From Nitrospirota bacterium (GTDB lineage: Bacteria; Nitrospirota; Thermodesulfovibrionia; Thermodesulfovibrionales; UBA6898): DNA of 55,076 nt. Under the pieces are notes generated by a model, which saw nothing but the letters and a program-made list of their open reading frames with translations, had not been told where the DNA came from and did not search any database. Position 1 is the first letter of the stretch. Each line of letters begins with the position of its first letter. The DNA lies in contig JAJRYC010000002.1 in the NCBI GenBank assembly GCA_024275975.1, positions 1-55,076 on the forward strand, written 5' to 3'. Positions 25,056 through 32,303 of the stretch are shown piece by piece. The position numbers were made by a program, and so were the translations under genes.

Positions 25056-25076
25056 CTGTTCAGAAAGGAGAAAGAT

Positions 25077-25271
25077 ATTACAAACATTAAAGTCCATGAA
25101 AATGATATCGAAAAAGCGCTTAAATCTCTAAAACGCGTCTTACAGAAAGAAGGTCTGTTCAAAGAGATCAAACAGAGAAGCTTTTACGAAAAACCTTCCG
25201 TAAAAGAGAAGCGCAAACAACGGGAAGCAAAGAAAAAACGGATGAAGGCCATGAAGTTCAGCCGGCATTAA
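25077..25271 (+). CDS. rpsU: 30S ribosomal protein S21, apparent ATT start
   Basis: A short gene for S21, a basic protein of the small-subunit platform near the 16S anti-Shine-Dalgarno tail. The 64-residue reading begins xTNIKVHENDIEKALKSLKR and continues through VLQKEGLFKEIKQRSFYEKP to a lysine-rich tail ending KFSRH. This matches S21, including the conserved KR...R..YEKPS..KR pattern. No ATG, GTG or TTG precedes the conserved part in this frame. The only codon correctly spaced (6 bases) from the strong AAAGGAG is ATT at 25077-25079. ATT starts are otherwise well known from infC. It stands alone on the plus strand with its own promoter and attenuator. Confidence 0.85.
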   Translation: MTNIKVHENDIEKALKSLKRVLQKEGLFKEIKQRSFYEKPSVKEKRKQREAKKKRMKAMKFSRH

Positions 25272-27761: not shown

Positions 27762-29849
27762 TTATCCTGTTCTGCAGAAATCGACTTTCCCTTTCCAGAA
27801 TGCTTCGACCGACTTCCCGAGCAAAGGGTATTCTTCCAGCCCGGGACTTGCATCTATTAAGTTAAACGCCTCTGTTCTTGCTGTCTCGAGTATCTCAATA
27901 TCTCTTACTATGTCCGCATTTTTCAGCTCCGGCATCCCGGACTGCTTTGTCCCCAGAAACTCACCGGGCCCCCTAATCTTCAGGTCTTCTTCCGATATTC
28001 TGAATCCGTCATTACTCTTAATCATAATATTGAGCCGGCGTTTCGCGTCATCTCCATATGGTTCATATACTATCAGAAGACAGTACGACCTGTCAGCGCC
28101 CCGTCCTACCCTCCCCCTCAACTGGTGGAGCTGGGCAAGCCCGAACCTCTCGGCGTGAATTACAAGCATTACAGTCGCGTTAGGCACATCCATCCCGACT
28201 TCTATCACGGTTGTGCTGACAAGAATATCTATTTCTCCTCTCTTAAAAGAGGTCATCACATCTTCCTTTTCACCGGCATTCATTCTACCGTGCAGTAATT
28301 CAATCCTGAATTCAGGGAATATTTTCCTGAAGGCCTCCATCCCCTGGACAGCTGACTTGAGACCGGACTTTTCCGACTCTTCTATCGCCGGATAGACGAC
28401 ATACGACTGTCTGCCCCTCTTTGTCTCGCCAAGTAACAGACTGTATATAGCATCTTTTTGCGATGAATTAAACAATTTTGTGATCACCGGCTTCCTGCCG
28501 GGAGGCAGTTCATCGATTACCGAGCAGTCAAGATCACCGTACAGGGTAAGGGAAAGAGACCTTGGTATCGGTGTGGCGGTCATCACAAGGACATCCGGAT
28601 TCATACCTTTCTTTCCGAGTAACGACCTCTGCATAACACCGAATTTATGCTGCTCATCGATCACGGCAAGTCCAAGATTCCCGAAAATGACGCCTTCCTG
28701 TATAAGCGCATGGGTGCCTATGATAATTTTTATTTCACCAGATGCTATACGGTCCATCCGTCTGTCCCTGGAACCGCCGGAAACCAGCACCGGCTCCAGC
28801 CCGATATTTTCTATCAACCCGTAAACACCAAGATAATGCTGCTCCGCGAGCACTTCCGTGGGTGCCATTAACACAGCCTGATACCCGCATTCAACGGCGT
28901 TAAGCATAGCCAGCAACGCTACAATAGTCTTGCCACACCCAACATCGCCCTGTATCAGCCGGTGCATGGGATAGGGACTCCGCATGTCCCTGATAATGCT
29001 CTCGACCGCCCTTCCCTGTGCGCGCGTCAATTCAAACCGCAGGTTTTCCAGAAGCGCCTTTCGCATTTTTCCGGCGGACTTGAATGAGATGCCTTTATTT
29101 CTTGCCGTTCTCTTCTTCTGGAGCGCCATGCCGGTCTCGAACATAAAAAGCTCATCAAAAAAGAGTCTCTTATGGTAAAGAGTGGAACATCCGTTGAATA
29201 AGTCCATGTGGAGGTTGTCTTCAGGGAAATGCAGACGAATAATACTCTGATGTAATGCGGGCAGGTTGTTCTTTTCGATAATTTCGCGCGGTATCGAATC
29301 AATTACATCCTCCGCGTATGTGTTGACAATTGAGAAAATGATATTCCTGAACTGTCTCTGACTGAGCCCCTCGGTCACTCTGTAAACCGGGACGACCCTC
29401 TGCGTATGGATACAGGCGTCATCCCCTGTAATTATTTCATATTCGGGATTGTCGATCACCAGGCAATCGCCGGAGTAAGCGTTTCTTGCAACAGTCCCGC
29501 TGAAGACCGCTTCCAGCCCCTCGCTGAACCTCTTTTTCAGAAAGCCCTGGTTAAACCATCTGCATTTTAAGGACGCAGTGCCGTCATTAATAACGGCCTC
29601 TAATATTCTGACCTTCCTTCCACGCGCCAATGTAAGTCCCGATGAAACGATTGTCCCCCTGACAGTTTCATAACTTCCGGCCCTGATATCACGGATTTTC
29701 ACGGGATTGCTTCTGTCTTCGTATCTGTAAGGCAGGTAATAAAGCGCGTCCTTGACCGTTTTAATTCCAAGACGGCCCAGGAGAACAGCCATCCGGGGTC
29801 CTACACCTTTAGCATCCTGTATGTGGCGGTCTGAAAGATCGCTATCCAT
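27762..29849 (-). CDS. recG: ATP-dependent DNA helicase RecG
   Basis: A branch-migration helicase that regresses stalled forks and acts on Holliday junctions. The 695-aa protein has an N-terminal wedge/OB domain (GVGPRMAVLLGRLGIKTVKD) and helicase motifs RLIQGDVGCGKTIVA, MAPTEVLAEQHY, VIDEQHKFG (the DEQH box), MTATPIPRSLSLT, LHGRMN and QLRGRVGRGAD. I take the ATG at 29849 over a TTG one codon earlier. It overlaps the nusA end by 8 bp. Confidence 0.96.
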   Translation of the reverse strand: MDSDLSDRHIQDAKGVGPRMAVLLGRLGIKTVKDALYYLPYRYEDRSNPVKIRDIRAGSYETVRGTIVSSGLTLARGRKVRILEAVINDGTASLKCRWFNQGFLKKRFSEGLEAVFSGTVARNAYSGDCLVIDNPEYEIITGDDACIHTQRVVPVYRVTEGLSQRQFRNIIFSIVNTYAEDVIDSIPREIIEKNNLPALHQSIIRLHFPEDNLHMDLFNGCSTLYHKRLFFDELFMFETGMALQKKRTARNKGISFKSAGKMRKALLENLRFELTRAQGRAVESIIRDMRSPYPMHRLIQGDVGCGKTIVALLAMLNAVECGYQAVLMAPTEVLAEQHYLGVYGLIENIGLEPVLVSGGSRDRRMDRIASGEIKIIIGTHALIQEGVIFGNLGLAVIDEQHKFGVMQRSLLGKKGMNPDVLVMTATPIPRSLSLTLYGDLDCSVIDELPPGRKPVITKLFNSSQKDAIYSLLLGETKRGRQSYVVYPAIEESEKSGLKSAVQGMEAFRKIFPEFRIELLHGRMNAGEKEDVMTSFKRGEIDILVSTTVIEVGMDVPNATVMLVIHAERFGLAQLHQLRGRVGRGADRSYCLLIVYEPYGDDAKRRLNIMIKSNDGFRISEEDLKIRGPGEFLGTKQSGMPELKNADIVRDIEILETARTEAFNLIDASPGLEEYPLLGKSVEAFWKGKVDFCRTG

Positions 29850-30963
29850 CAACAGAAGGGTTATCGTTTTTCTGACGGTCCTTCTTTATTGAATCCGCAA
29901 GCGCTTTATCGGTCTCTTCCATTCTGATTTTTGAGTATTCAGTGTCACTTATTATATCGATGTCCCATCCTGTGAGCTTCATGGCAAGTCTCACATTCTG
30001 GCCCTTTTTCCCGATCGCAAGCGACAACTGCTGGTCATTTACAACAACCATCGCTGTTTTGCCCTCTTCATTAATGCCGATCTTATCGATACTGGCCGGG
30101 CTGAGAGCCCGAGCGACTAGAATTCTGGGATCATCCGTCCAGGGGATAATATCAATTCTTTCTCCCTTGAGCTCGCGTACTATAATCTGCACCCTCGTCC
30201 CCTTCATTCCGACACAGGAACCGACAGGATCAACAGTACTGTCTTTTGCATAGACGGCTATTTTCGTGCGCTCGCCAGGTTCCCTCACGATGTCCTTTAT
30301 CAAAACAAGACCCTCGTTAATTTCCGGCACTTCCAGCCTGAACAATCCGGCCACAAAATCAGGGACCGTCCTCGATAACATTATAGCAGGCCCTTTTTGT
30401 GAAACTTTCACGTCTACTATTATCGCCTTTACAGTATCGCCTCTTTTGAGGTTCTCATTTGGAAGGGCCTCTTTAAAGGGAAGCAACGCCTCTGTTTTTC
30501 CCAGATTAAGATAATACACACCCTTTTCTCTTCTCATTATCACGCCGCTGACAACCTGGCCGATCCTATCCTTGAAATCATTGTAAATAACGTCTCTTTC
30601 AGCCTCTCTGACCCTCTGGAATATGACCTGCTTGGCGGTCTGGGCCGCTATTCTTCCCAGATCATGGAGGTCAAGGGGAATGTCAACGGTCTCGCCTTCT
30701 TTACTGTCCGGAAATAATTTGCAGGCATCGACTATTGATATCTCCTCATAGGGATCTGCTACGTCTGCGACTATCGTCTTGGATTCAAAGACGTCTATGT
30801 TGCATTTCTGGCGGTCTATCGAGAGGTTTATGTTTCTCTTATCTCCGTATTTCTTCCTTATCGCGGAGACAAGCGCCGACTCAAGCGCTTCAATCAAAAT
30901 TTCTTTTGATATGCCCTTTTCCCTGCTGATCTGTTCAATTACATAACATAGTTCTTTTGTCAT
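29842..30963 (-). CDS. nusA: Transcription termination/antitermination protein NusA
   Basis: An RNA-polymerase-associated factor controlling pausing, termination and antitermination. The 373-aa protein has the N-terminal RNAP-binding domain (about 1-125), an S1 domain (about 130-200, GQVVSGVIMRREKGVYYLNL) and two KH domains (GSCVGMKGTRVQIIVRELKG, LAIGKKGQNVRLAMKLTGWD). The C-terminal acidic repeats of proteobacterial NusA are absent, as in many other phyla. The ATG overlaps the rimP stop by 4 bp. infB, the usual next gene, is replaced here by recG. Confidence 0.96.
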   Translation of the reverse strand: MTKELCYVIEQISREKGISKEILIEALESALVSAIRKKYGDKRNINLSIDRQKCNIDVFESKTIVADVADPYEEISIVDACKLFPDSKEGETVDIPLDLHDLGRIAAQTAKQVIFQRVREAERDVIYNDFKDRIGQVVSGVIMRREKGVYYLNLGKTEALLPFKEALPNENLKRGDTVKAIIVDVKVSQKGPAIMLSRTVPDFVAGLFRLEVPEINEGLVLIKDIVREPGERTKIAVYAKDSTVDPVGSCVGMKGTRVQIIVRELKGERIDIIPWTDDPRILVARALSPASIDKIGINEEGKTAMVVVNDQQLSLAIGKKGQNVRLAMKLTGWDIDIISDTEYSKIRMEETDKALADSIKKDRQKNDNPSVDG

Positions 30964-31421
30964 TTAAGCTCTATTTCCAATCTTGCTTTAGCTATCTGAT
31001 CAAATGGAATATATATTACGGCTTTTTTGTCAATCGACAATTCAAGATTGTCTCCCGTGACATCTGTAAGCCTTCCCACAAAAAACTTCTGGTTATTAAT
31101 GCTTTCTTTCGTAACAATTCTGACCAGTTTTCCGATGTTTTTCTCAAAATCTTCAGGTCCATTCAGGGCCCTGTCCAAGCCGGGAGAGGCAACCTCAAGC
31201 GTATATGAAGTCCTGATCGGGTCCTCCACGTCTAAAATAGTTGACATCGCCCTGCTGAATTTCCCACAGTCTTCAAGGGTTACTCCCTGATCCTTATCGA
31301 TAAATATTCTCACAATTGCGTTTCTCAAGCTTCCTTTCAGTTCAATATCGGCGATCTGCACGCCGTATTCAGCAGCTATTGAATCAGCCAGTTCATATAT
31401 TTTTCTTTTTACCTCAGCCAT
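30960..31421 (-). CDS. rimP: Ribosome maturation factor RimP
   Basis: A factor for 30S subunit assembly. The 153-aa protein (ATG 31421) has the two-domain RimP pattern: the N-terminal alpha/beta domain (SIAAEYGVQIADIELKGSLR, then VRIFIDKDQGVTLEDC) with TLEVASPGLDRAL, and a C-terminal SH3-like domain. The start has no Shine-Dalgarno sequence, and a terminator-type hairpin ends only seven bases upstream. It opens the operon with nusA, recG, a hypothetical gene, the prepilin peptidase and a histidine kinase. Confidence 0.94.
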   Translation of the reverse strand: MAEVKRKIYELADSIAAEYGVQIADIELKGSLRNAIVRIFIDKDQGVTLEDCGKFSRAMSTILDVEDPIRTSYTLEVASPGLDRALNGPEDFEKNIGKLVRIVTKESINNQKFFVGRLTDVTGDNLELSIDKKAVIYIPFDQIAKARLEIELK

Positions 31422-31428
31422 ATAAAAC

Positions 31429-31455
31429 AAAAGAGTGGGTATTGCCCACTCTTTT
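31429..31455 (-). terminator. Terminator-like hairpin in rimP leader
   Basis: A perfect 11-bp stem (AAAAGAGTGGG 31429-31439, CCCACTCTTTT 31445-31455) with a 5-nt loop. Read on the minus strand it is followed by GTTTTAT and then the rimP ATG. It lies between the rimP promoter (31488-31516) and the start codon, so rimP-operon transcripts from that promoter must pass it. It could also end queE transcripts. Confidence 0.75.
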
Positions 31456-31487
31456 CAATAAATCCGAACAAAAAATGAATAACATAA

Positions 31488-31516
31488 ATTATATCAATAA
31501 ACCCACCAAAAATCAA
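31488..31516 (-). promoter_or_regulatory. Sigma-70 promoter of the rimP-nusA operon
   Basis: On the minus strand TTGATT (31511-31516), 17 bp, then a perfect TATAAT (31488-31493) preceded by TGA, which also gives an extended -10. Predicted start near 31481 gives a leader of about 60 nt containing the hairpin at 31429-31455. Confidence 0.7.
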
Positions 31517-31611: not shown

Positions 31612-31668
31612 ATGACAAACGATAATAAAGAAATCCTGGATACGCATACACACCCGGATGAAGATTAA
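31612..31668 (+). other. 18-codon mini-ORF convergent with queE
   Basis: ATG at 31612 opens an 18-codon frame (MTNDNKEILDTHTHPDED) whose TAA overlaps the queE stop codon on the other strand by two bases. The DTHTHPD string recalls the first strand of TatD/PHP-type metal hydrolases, so it may be the start of a lost gene or mere chance. A TATAAT lies at 31574-31579. The ribosome site is weak. I do not claim it is expressed. Confidence 0.25.
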
Positions 31669-31973
31669 ACCCCTCTCCTGTCCGGGCCGAAAATATATTT
31701 GTGGATCTGGAGATTAAGCCTTATATCCAGGTTGTCATCGACAATCCACCCAGCAAGCTCGGCGGGGTCTAACAACCCAAACACTGGGGAAAACAATACT
31801 TCAGCCCTGTCCTGGAGCTTACGCCCATGGACTATATCTTTCGCCCAATCATAATCATTCCGGCCACCCAGTACAAATTTTATCTCATCCGTGGGTTTTA
31901 TGAGATCTAAACCCGAAAAATCCATCTTATCGCTCATGCCGCTCCCAGGGGTCTTTATATCAAGGATGACCAC
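31665..31973 (-). CDS. queE: QueE, C-terminal part (gene with in-frame amber)
   Basis: C-terminal half of 7-carboxy-7-deazaguanine synthase, in the same frame as the 31992-32303 segment and separated from it by TAG at 31992-31994. Between the stop and this ATG lie six codons (GIDKRA) that continue the protein, so the ATG is internal. It has LDIKTPGSGMSDKMDFSGLD and IKFVLGGRNDYDWAKDIV, typical of QueE, and a C-terminal QIHKYIFGPDRRGV. Confidence 0.85.
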   Translation of the reverse strand: MVILDIKTPGSGMSDKMDFSGLDLIKPTDEIKFVLGGRNDYDWAKDIVHGRKLQDRAEVLFSPVFGLLDPAELAGWIVDDNLDIRLNLQIHKYIFGPDRRGV

Positions 31974-31991
31974 GGCGCGTTTATCGATGCC

Positions 31992-32303
31992 CTATATGCT
32001 TTTAGAGCCGTTGGTCTCGATTAATACATGACATCCCTCATCAAGCAGTGCAGGAACCAGAACATGCAGCTCCGCCTCCTGGAGAAGAGGTTCTCCCCCT
32101 GTAATCTCTACAAGATTCGGCCCTGACAGCCTGACCCGGCCCATAATCTCATCTACCGGCATCTCTGTCCCGTCACTATACGCGTATTGAGTATCGCAAT
32201 AAGCGCACCTCAGGTTACAGCCGCTGAACCGGATAAAAGTACATGGAAGCCCTGCATAACTCGACTCTCCCTGTATGCCCGTAAATATCTCGCTGATTTT
32301 CAT
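31992..32303 (-). CDS. queE: 7-carboxy-7-deazaguanine synthase, N-terminal part (interrupted)
   Basis: A radical-SAM enzyme that makes 7-carboxy-7-deazaguanine for queuosine (and other 7-deazaguanine) synthesis. It shows the QueE start EIFTGIQGESSYAGLPCTFI, the cluster-binding motif CxxxCxxC (CNLRCAYCDT) and the SAM-binding EITGGEPLLQ. The frame stops at amber 31992-31994 after LIETNGSKSI. The stop falls at a poorly conserved position, just before the KTPGSG region. Uninterrupted length is about 212 aa, normal for the family. No queC, queD or folE is adjacent. Confidence 0.9.
   Translation of the reverse strand: MKISEIFTGIQGESSYAGLPCTFIRFSGCNLRCAYCDTQYAYSDGTEMPVDEIMGRVRLSGPNLVEITGGEPLLQEAELHVLVPALLDEGCHVLIETNGSKSI

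Follow-up and report, generated by a model that had tools for sequence, protein, structure and literature searches.

What does a hairpin do when it stands between the promoter of the rimP-nusA operon and the operon's first start codon? The window (the whole stretch of 55,076 nucleotides of Nitrospirota DNA that we analysed) raises this question upstream of rimP, and a preliminary description suggested an attenuator by which NusA, encoded second in the operon, senses its own level. We consider it likely that this hairpin is a rimP-leader attenuator, that it serves the rimP-nusA(-recG) operon, and that NusA limits its own production through it.

All elements of this leader lie on the minus strand. 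The promoter was found as described, from 31516 to 31488: a -35 hexamer TTGATT (31511..31516) and, after a 17-nt spacer, a -10 hexamer TATAAT (31488..31493) preceded by TG, with a predicted transcription start site near 31481. The hexamers alone are weak evidence, as there are 33 such sites in 15 kb where 24.7 are expected. However, the position and the -35 pattern recur in relatives; a sigma-70-like TTG[AC]TT continued by T's (TTG[AC]TTTTT) stands upstream of the hairpin in most of them. Because the promoter recurs upstream of the hairpin, transcripts from this promoter must cross the hairpin. The hairpin itself, AAAAGAGUGGG(caaua)CCCACUCUUUU (31429..31455), is indeed a perfect 11-bp stem with a 5-nt loop, beginning 32 nt past the -10 hexamer and about 25 nt past the predicted start site. 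Its conserved core, GAGUGGG/CCCACUC, occupies 31451-31433. The 11-bp stem alone folds at -15.1 kcal/mol (z -6.4), the 7-bp core at -10.8 kcal/mol, which makes the hairpin a moderate one, and the leader including the start region at -22.8 kcal/mol (z -4.0).

The U-tract, UUUUGUUUU (31424..31432), reads TTTTGTTTT on the minus strand from 31432 to 31424 and has a conserved G break at 31428. Downstream of the promoter the order is AAAAGAGUGGG-caaua-CCCACUCUUUU-GUUUUAU-AUG, the AUG (31419..31421) being the start codon of rimP. The distance of seven bases to this codon that had been reported applies to the end of the stem, but the U-tract ends only two bases before it. Likewise, the reported lack of a Shine-Dalgarno sequence is true of this AUG, where we detected no anti-Shine-Dalgarno pairing (+0.2 kcal/mol), and of its lineage, but it is not general among carriers of the element. 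Several other genes in the window are also without a clear Shine-Dalgarno sequence.

By Pfam assignment, the operon begins with rimP (30960..31421; RimP_N and a C-terminal SH3 domain) and continues with nusA (29842..30963; NusA_N, S1 and KH domains, 373 aa), which overlaps the end of rimP and encodes the proposed sensor, and recG (27762..29852), which overlaps the end of nusA. In this operon recG occupies the place of infB, which is found on another contig. The relatives of this NusA, at 70-83% identity, come from Nitrospirae MAGs and Thermodesulfovibrionales, and nusA adjoins rimP directly downstream in the relatives searched. Upstream of rimP, on the same strand, lies queE (32303..31665), which is interrupted by a single in-frame TAG at 31992-31994, its two halves sharing one frame; the TAG could be a nonsense mutation, an assembly error or strain variation.

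The hairpin is found nearly letter for letter throughout an uncultured Nitrospirota group. The motif GAGTGGG-N2..9-CCCACTC has a single occurrence in the 2.51-Mb genome, and our covariance model (R1) gave one sole strong match per genome in 60 of 61 relatives, including all 53 of the 53 high-quality genomes; R1 matches elsewhere in related genomes had E above 0.1. Among the 60 best matches, 59 share the strand of a RimP_N match and precede it by 27-172 nt; in G010, the exception, rimP is truncated and the best match is on another contig. Tallied over the genomes listed for a phylum-wide sample, the element is present in 58 of the 60 genomes from the order, in 7 of 8 from elsewhere in the class, and in only one from the other sampled classes. 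Other classes may carry different stem letters.

We aligned the RimP loci of 61 related genomes and 80 NusA loci by the RimP start. Counts from these leaders are not independent, since the leaders are mutually related, and the regular expression with which they were collected fixed part of the stem letters. AGTGG...CCRC[TC] followed by a U-tract is present ahead of rimP in all but one of the 68 distinct leaders from Nitrospirota (67/68), the exception (L115) having a longer variant hairpin, and the consensus is AAAGAGUGGG-N4-CCCACUCUUUUGUUUUAU. Outside the letters fixed by the regular expression, a G precedes AGTGG in 63/67 leaders, and the fifth base of the U-tract is G in 56/67 and A in 5 more; the loop and the sequence 5' of the stem are variable. 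The stem is conserved in sequence, nearly verbatim, beyond what pairing explains. Because it hardly changes, covariation is limited, but it is real: the covariation check named in the preliminary description yielded compensatory changes in 6 cells in 2 pairs, and none of 500 shuffles equalled the cell count or the covariation score. Slid alignments also scored lower than the true register, in pairing and in covariation. Between phyla, it is the outer pairs that differ. In Nitrospirota and Firmicutes a U-A is followed by a G-C, in Gammaproteobacteria by an A-U, and Desulfobacterota have a C-G followed mostly by an A-U; GGG/CCC is invariant across the phyla compared.

Two further features were seen in some of the leaders. 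The motif TTC[AG]T[TC]C occurs a few bases past the -10 hexamer in 10/67 leaders, where 0.6 would be expected, and is confined to close relatives (carriers include L005, L006, L008, L092, L096, L105 and L117); it has no exact copy in the window, and its sharing could reflect close kinship. A second, stronger hairpin is located about 100-150 nt before rimP in L022, L090, L111, L124, L126, L130, L135, L136 and L139. It often takes the form CAGGGG...CCCCTG then TTGC(A/T)TTTT, so that its U-rich tail overlaps the promoter's -35 TTGCTT.

The break in the U-tract sets these leaders apart from other terminator-like sites. A purine break is found in 57 of 59 leaders, compared with 1 of the 43 sites in our control, a small set drawn from 1.05 Mb sampled across two genomes in the family (G000, G007); the Fisher p of about 5e-25 exaggerates the significance, the leaders being kin to one another. 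A break of this kind also occurs in 25/28 Desulfobacterota and 3/3 Gammaproteobacteria leaders, and in Firmicutes leaders the U-tract is interrupted earlier in the tract. Distal U-tract interruptions have been reported for NusA-dependent terminators and also for NusG-dependent ones (PMC8060035). Where NusA-dependent terminators are recognized by a weak hairpin and/or an interrupted distal U-tract, the present element resembles them through its conserved break, its hairpin being moderate. As a separate observation, strict terminators consisting of a hairpin and a U-tract look rare in this family, given 43 candidates on both strands of the 1.05 Mb from G000 and G007, and most termination in the family may use other means.

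Several published leaders are of this kind. Naville and Gautheret (2010) named the rimP-leader, described it as the most ubiquitous of attenuators and suggested that NusA is its effector (PMC2965389). The two agree in having a terminator hairpin in the 5' leader of the rimP-nusA operon, an invariant GGG...CCC stem, a U-stretch after the stem (here the conserved UUUUGUUUU), a terminator 4-130 nt before the gene (here 7 nt) and no visible antiterminator. Our element differs in belonging to Nitrospirota and to a rimP-nusA-recG operon without infB, in an outer stem fixed as GAGUGGG/CCCACUC, in leaving the published lower-case c-g pair unformed (the c is opposite an a), and in its conserved purine break, which the accessible part of their text does not mention. 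In Bacillus subtilis, nusA is autoregulated by NusA-stimulated intrinsic termination in its leader (Mondal et al. 2016, as summarized in PMC12288461). The resemblance to that leader, drawn from the summary's description and not from sequence, is a terminator without an antiterminator upstream of nusA; there the level of NusA sets read-through, as we suppose by analogy that it does here. In the Streptococcus agalactiae operon gbs0413-0418 (rimP-nusA-infB), leader termination was mapped 31 nt past the start site (PMC4448216), with a short terminated and a long read-through RNA sharing one start; these were mapped in that organism and are predicted for ours. NusA also represses its own operon in Escherichia coli, metY-rimP-nusA-infB, according to work cited in PMC4448216 and in PMC2965389. 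The E. coli operon differs from ours in containing metY, and gammaproteobacterial rimP-leaders differ in that they can have a second, tandem terminator.

At gathering thresholds Rfam matches nothing in the window, and relaxing the cut-off to E<=10 yields only chance-like matches at the hairpin. The Rfam rimP model, RF01770, has matches of at most 22.7 bits in the genome, all elsewhere, against a gathering threshold of 47 bits. This model is narrow, because a score above its cut-off was reached in just one of 14 control genomes. The element is not a member of RF01770 as modelled, and annotation that relies on the Rfam rimP model will overlook these leaders.

Based on these precedents, we propose the following mechanism. 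Polymerase starting from the TTGATT/TATAAT promoter would make roughly 50 nt of RNA and would then meet a hairpin of 7-11 bp, followed by a U-tract that is broken by one G, which would leave the terminator sub-optimal. When NusA is scarce, more polymerases would read through. No antiterminator would be needed, and pairing that could form one is not above the shuffled level, the longest complement to the 5' arm in the 41 nt upstream being 6.3 nt compared with 6.0 nt. From precedent we infer termination in the cell, its increase by NusA and the closed feedback loop. The earlier suggestion of a NusA-sensing attenuator gains support in that such a function is published for the element class, and in that there is one element per genome before rimP-nusA, with no antiterminator and a broken U-tract. 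However, some points count against it. A generic effect of NusA on hairpins does not require the stem to be as conserved in sequence as it is. Moreover, rimP and nusA always occur side by side here, which leaves RimP or another factor as a possible sensor; with nusA following rimP in the relatives searched, the two proteins are inseparable as sensors.

Among the alternatives, the one with the greatest weight, which we nonetheless regard as unlikely, is that the same terminator might serve another sensor, a sequence-specific RNA- or DNA-binding factor that reads the fixed GAGUGGG/CCCACUC. Candidates are RimP, the KH and S1 domains of NusA as a true RNA sensor, NusG acting at a tract resembling TTNTTT, or a further protein. 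Near-verbatim conservation of the stem across an order and in Firmicutes speaks for such recognition, as does the argument for sequence recognition made by Naville and Gautheret (PMC2965389), and TTGTTT agrees with TTNTTT, a NusG pause motif given in PMC12288461. However, the outer pairs differ in Desulfobacterota and Gammaproteobacteria (ACGGGC, AUGGGCC), only GGG/CCC being universal, and NusA autoregulation in B. subtilis was demonstrated without such a factor, according to PMC12288461. It is considerably less probable that the hairpin, seven nucleotides before the start codon, mainly blocks or gates the ribosome's access to rimP. The AUG of this lineage is within or beside the U-tract and has no Shine-Dalgarno sequence, and the ATG is at most 15 nt from the stem core in 35/67 leaders. 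Nevertheless, the distance to the start codon ranges across leaders from 9 to about 185 nt (L014, L017, L100 and L138 are examples) with no change in hairpin or U-tract, the start codon often having a Shine-Dalgarno sequence of its own, sometimes a good one, and translational control needs no conserved U-tract. Because the start spacing varies in this way, we favour transcription over translation as the main target.

Instead, the hairpin might be a plain terminator belonging to the upstream gene and merely abut rimP, as the position of queE on the same strand could suggest, but we consider this very improbable. A promoter intervenes, and several relatives have a separate terminator-like hairpin further upstream. 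In addition, the upstream genes differ among relatives, forming 17 clusters of which several long ones are divergent; because they vary and often diverge, the hairpin is not the terminator of one particular upstream gene. Terminator-like sites are common in scans, and an inverted repeat can arise by chance. For the present hairpin this idea has next to no probability and is refuted by conservation, as 60 genomes each have just one copy, at the same orthologous place.

We find it most interesting that the letters of the stem are fixed, and not only its pairing. What this analysis adds is the near-verbatim conservation, the purine break, the lack of an antiterminator, the varying and diverging upstream genes and the variable spacing between hairpin and start. 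Nitrospirota are thereby added to the bacteria with this feedback device, which serves a universal transcription factor and is apparently ancient, and 67 aligned leaders are provided. Since the stem letters and the U-tract break are kept beyond the needs of pairing, they offer point mutations for studying how NusA picks a terminator. Tentatively, and with somewhat more doubt than belief, we suggest that selection has shaped the purine break as a design feature in the rimP leaders of several phyla. The break might keep the terminator too weak to act alone, so that termination reports occupancy of the polymerase by NusA (or by NusA and NusG), while the fixed GGG/CCC stem might be read by a specific contact.

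The preliminary description also held that the same plan of promoter, hairpin and start occurs at rpsU. This comparison did not survive: rpsU has a Shine-Dalgarno sequence, its hairpin is weak (z -1.2) and distant, with about 28 nt between it and the likely start, and that plan is missing from close relatives. The gene (25065-25271, plus strand), one of two S21 genes in the genome, has no in-frame ATG, GTG or TTG before the conserved region. In the frame after AAGGAG, an ATT at 25077 is a candidate AUU start. Most relatives' rpsU genes have a TTG one codon downstream, usually just past the end of a glycine-rich open frame.
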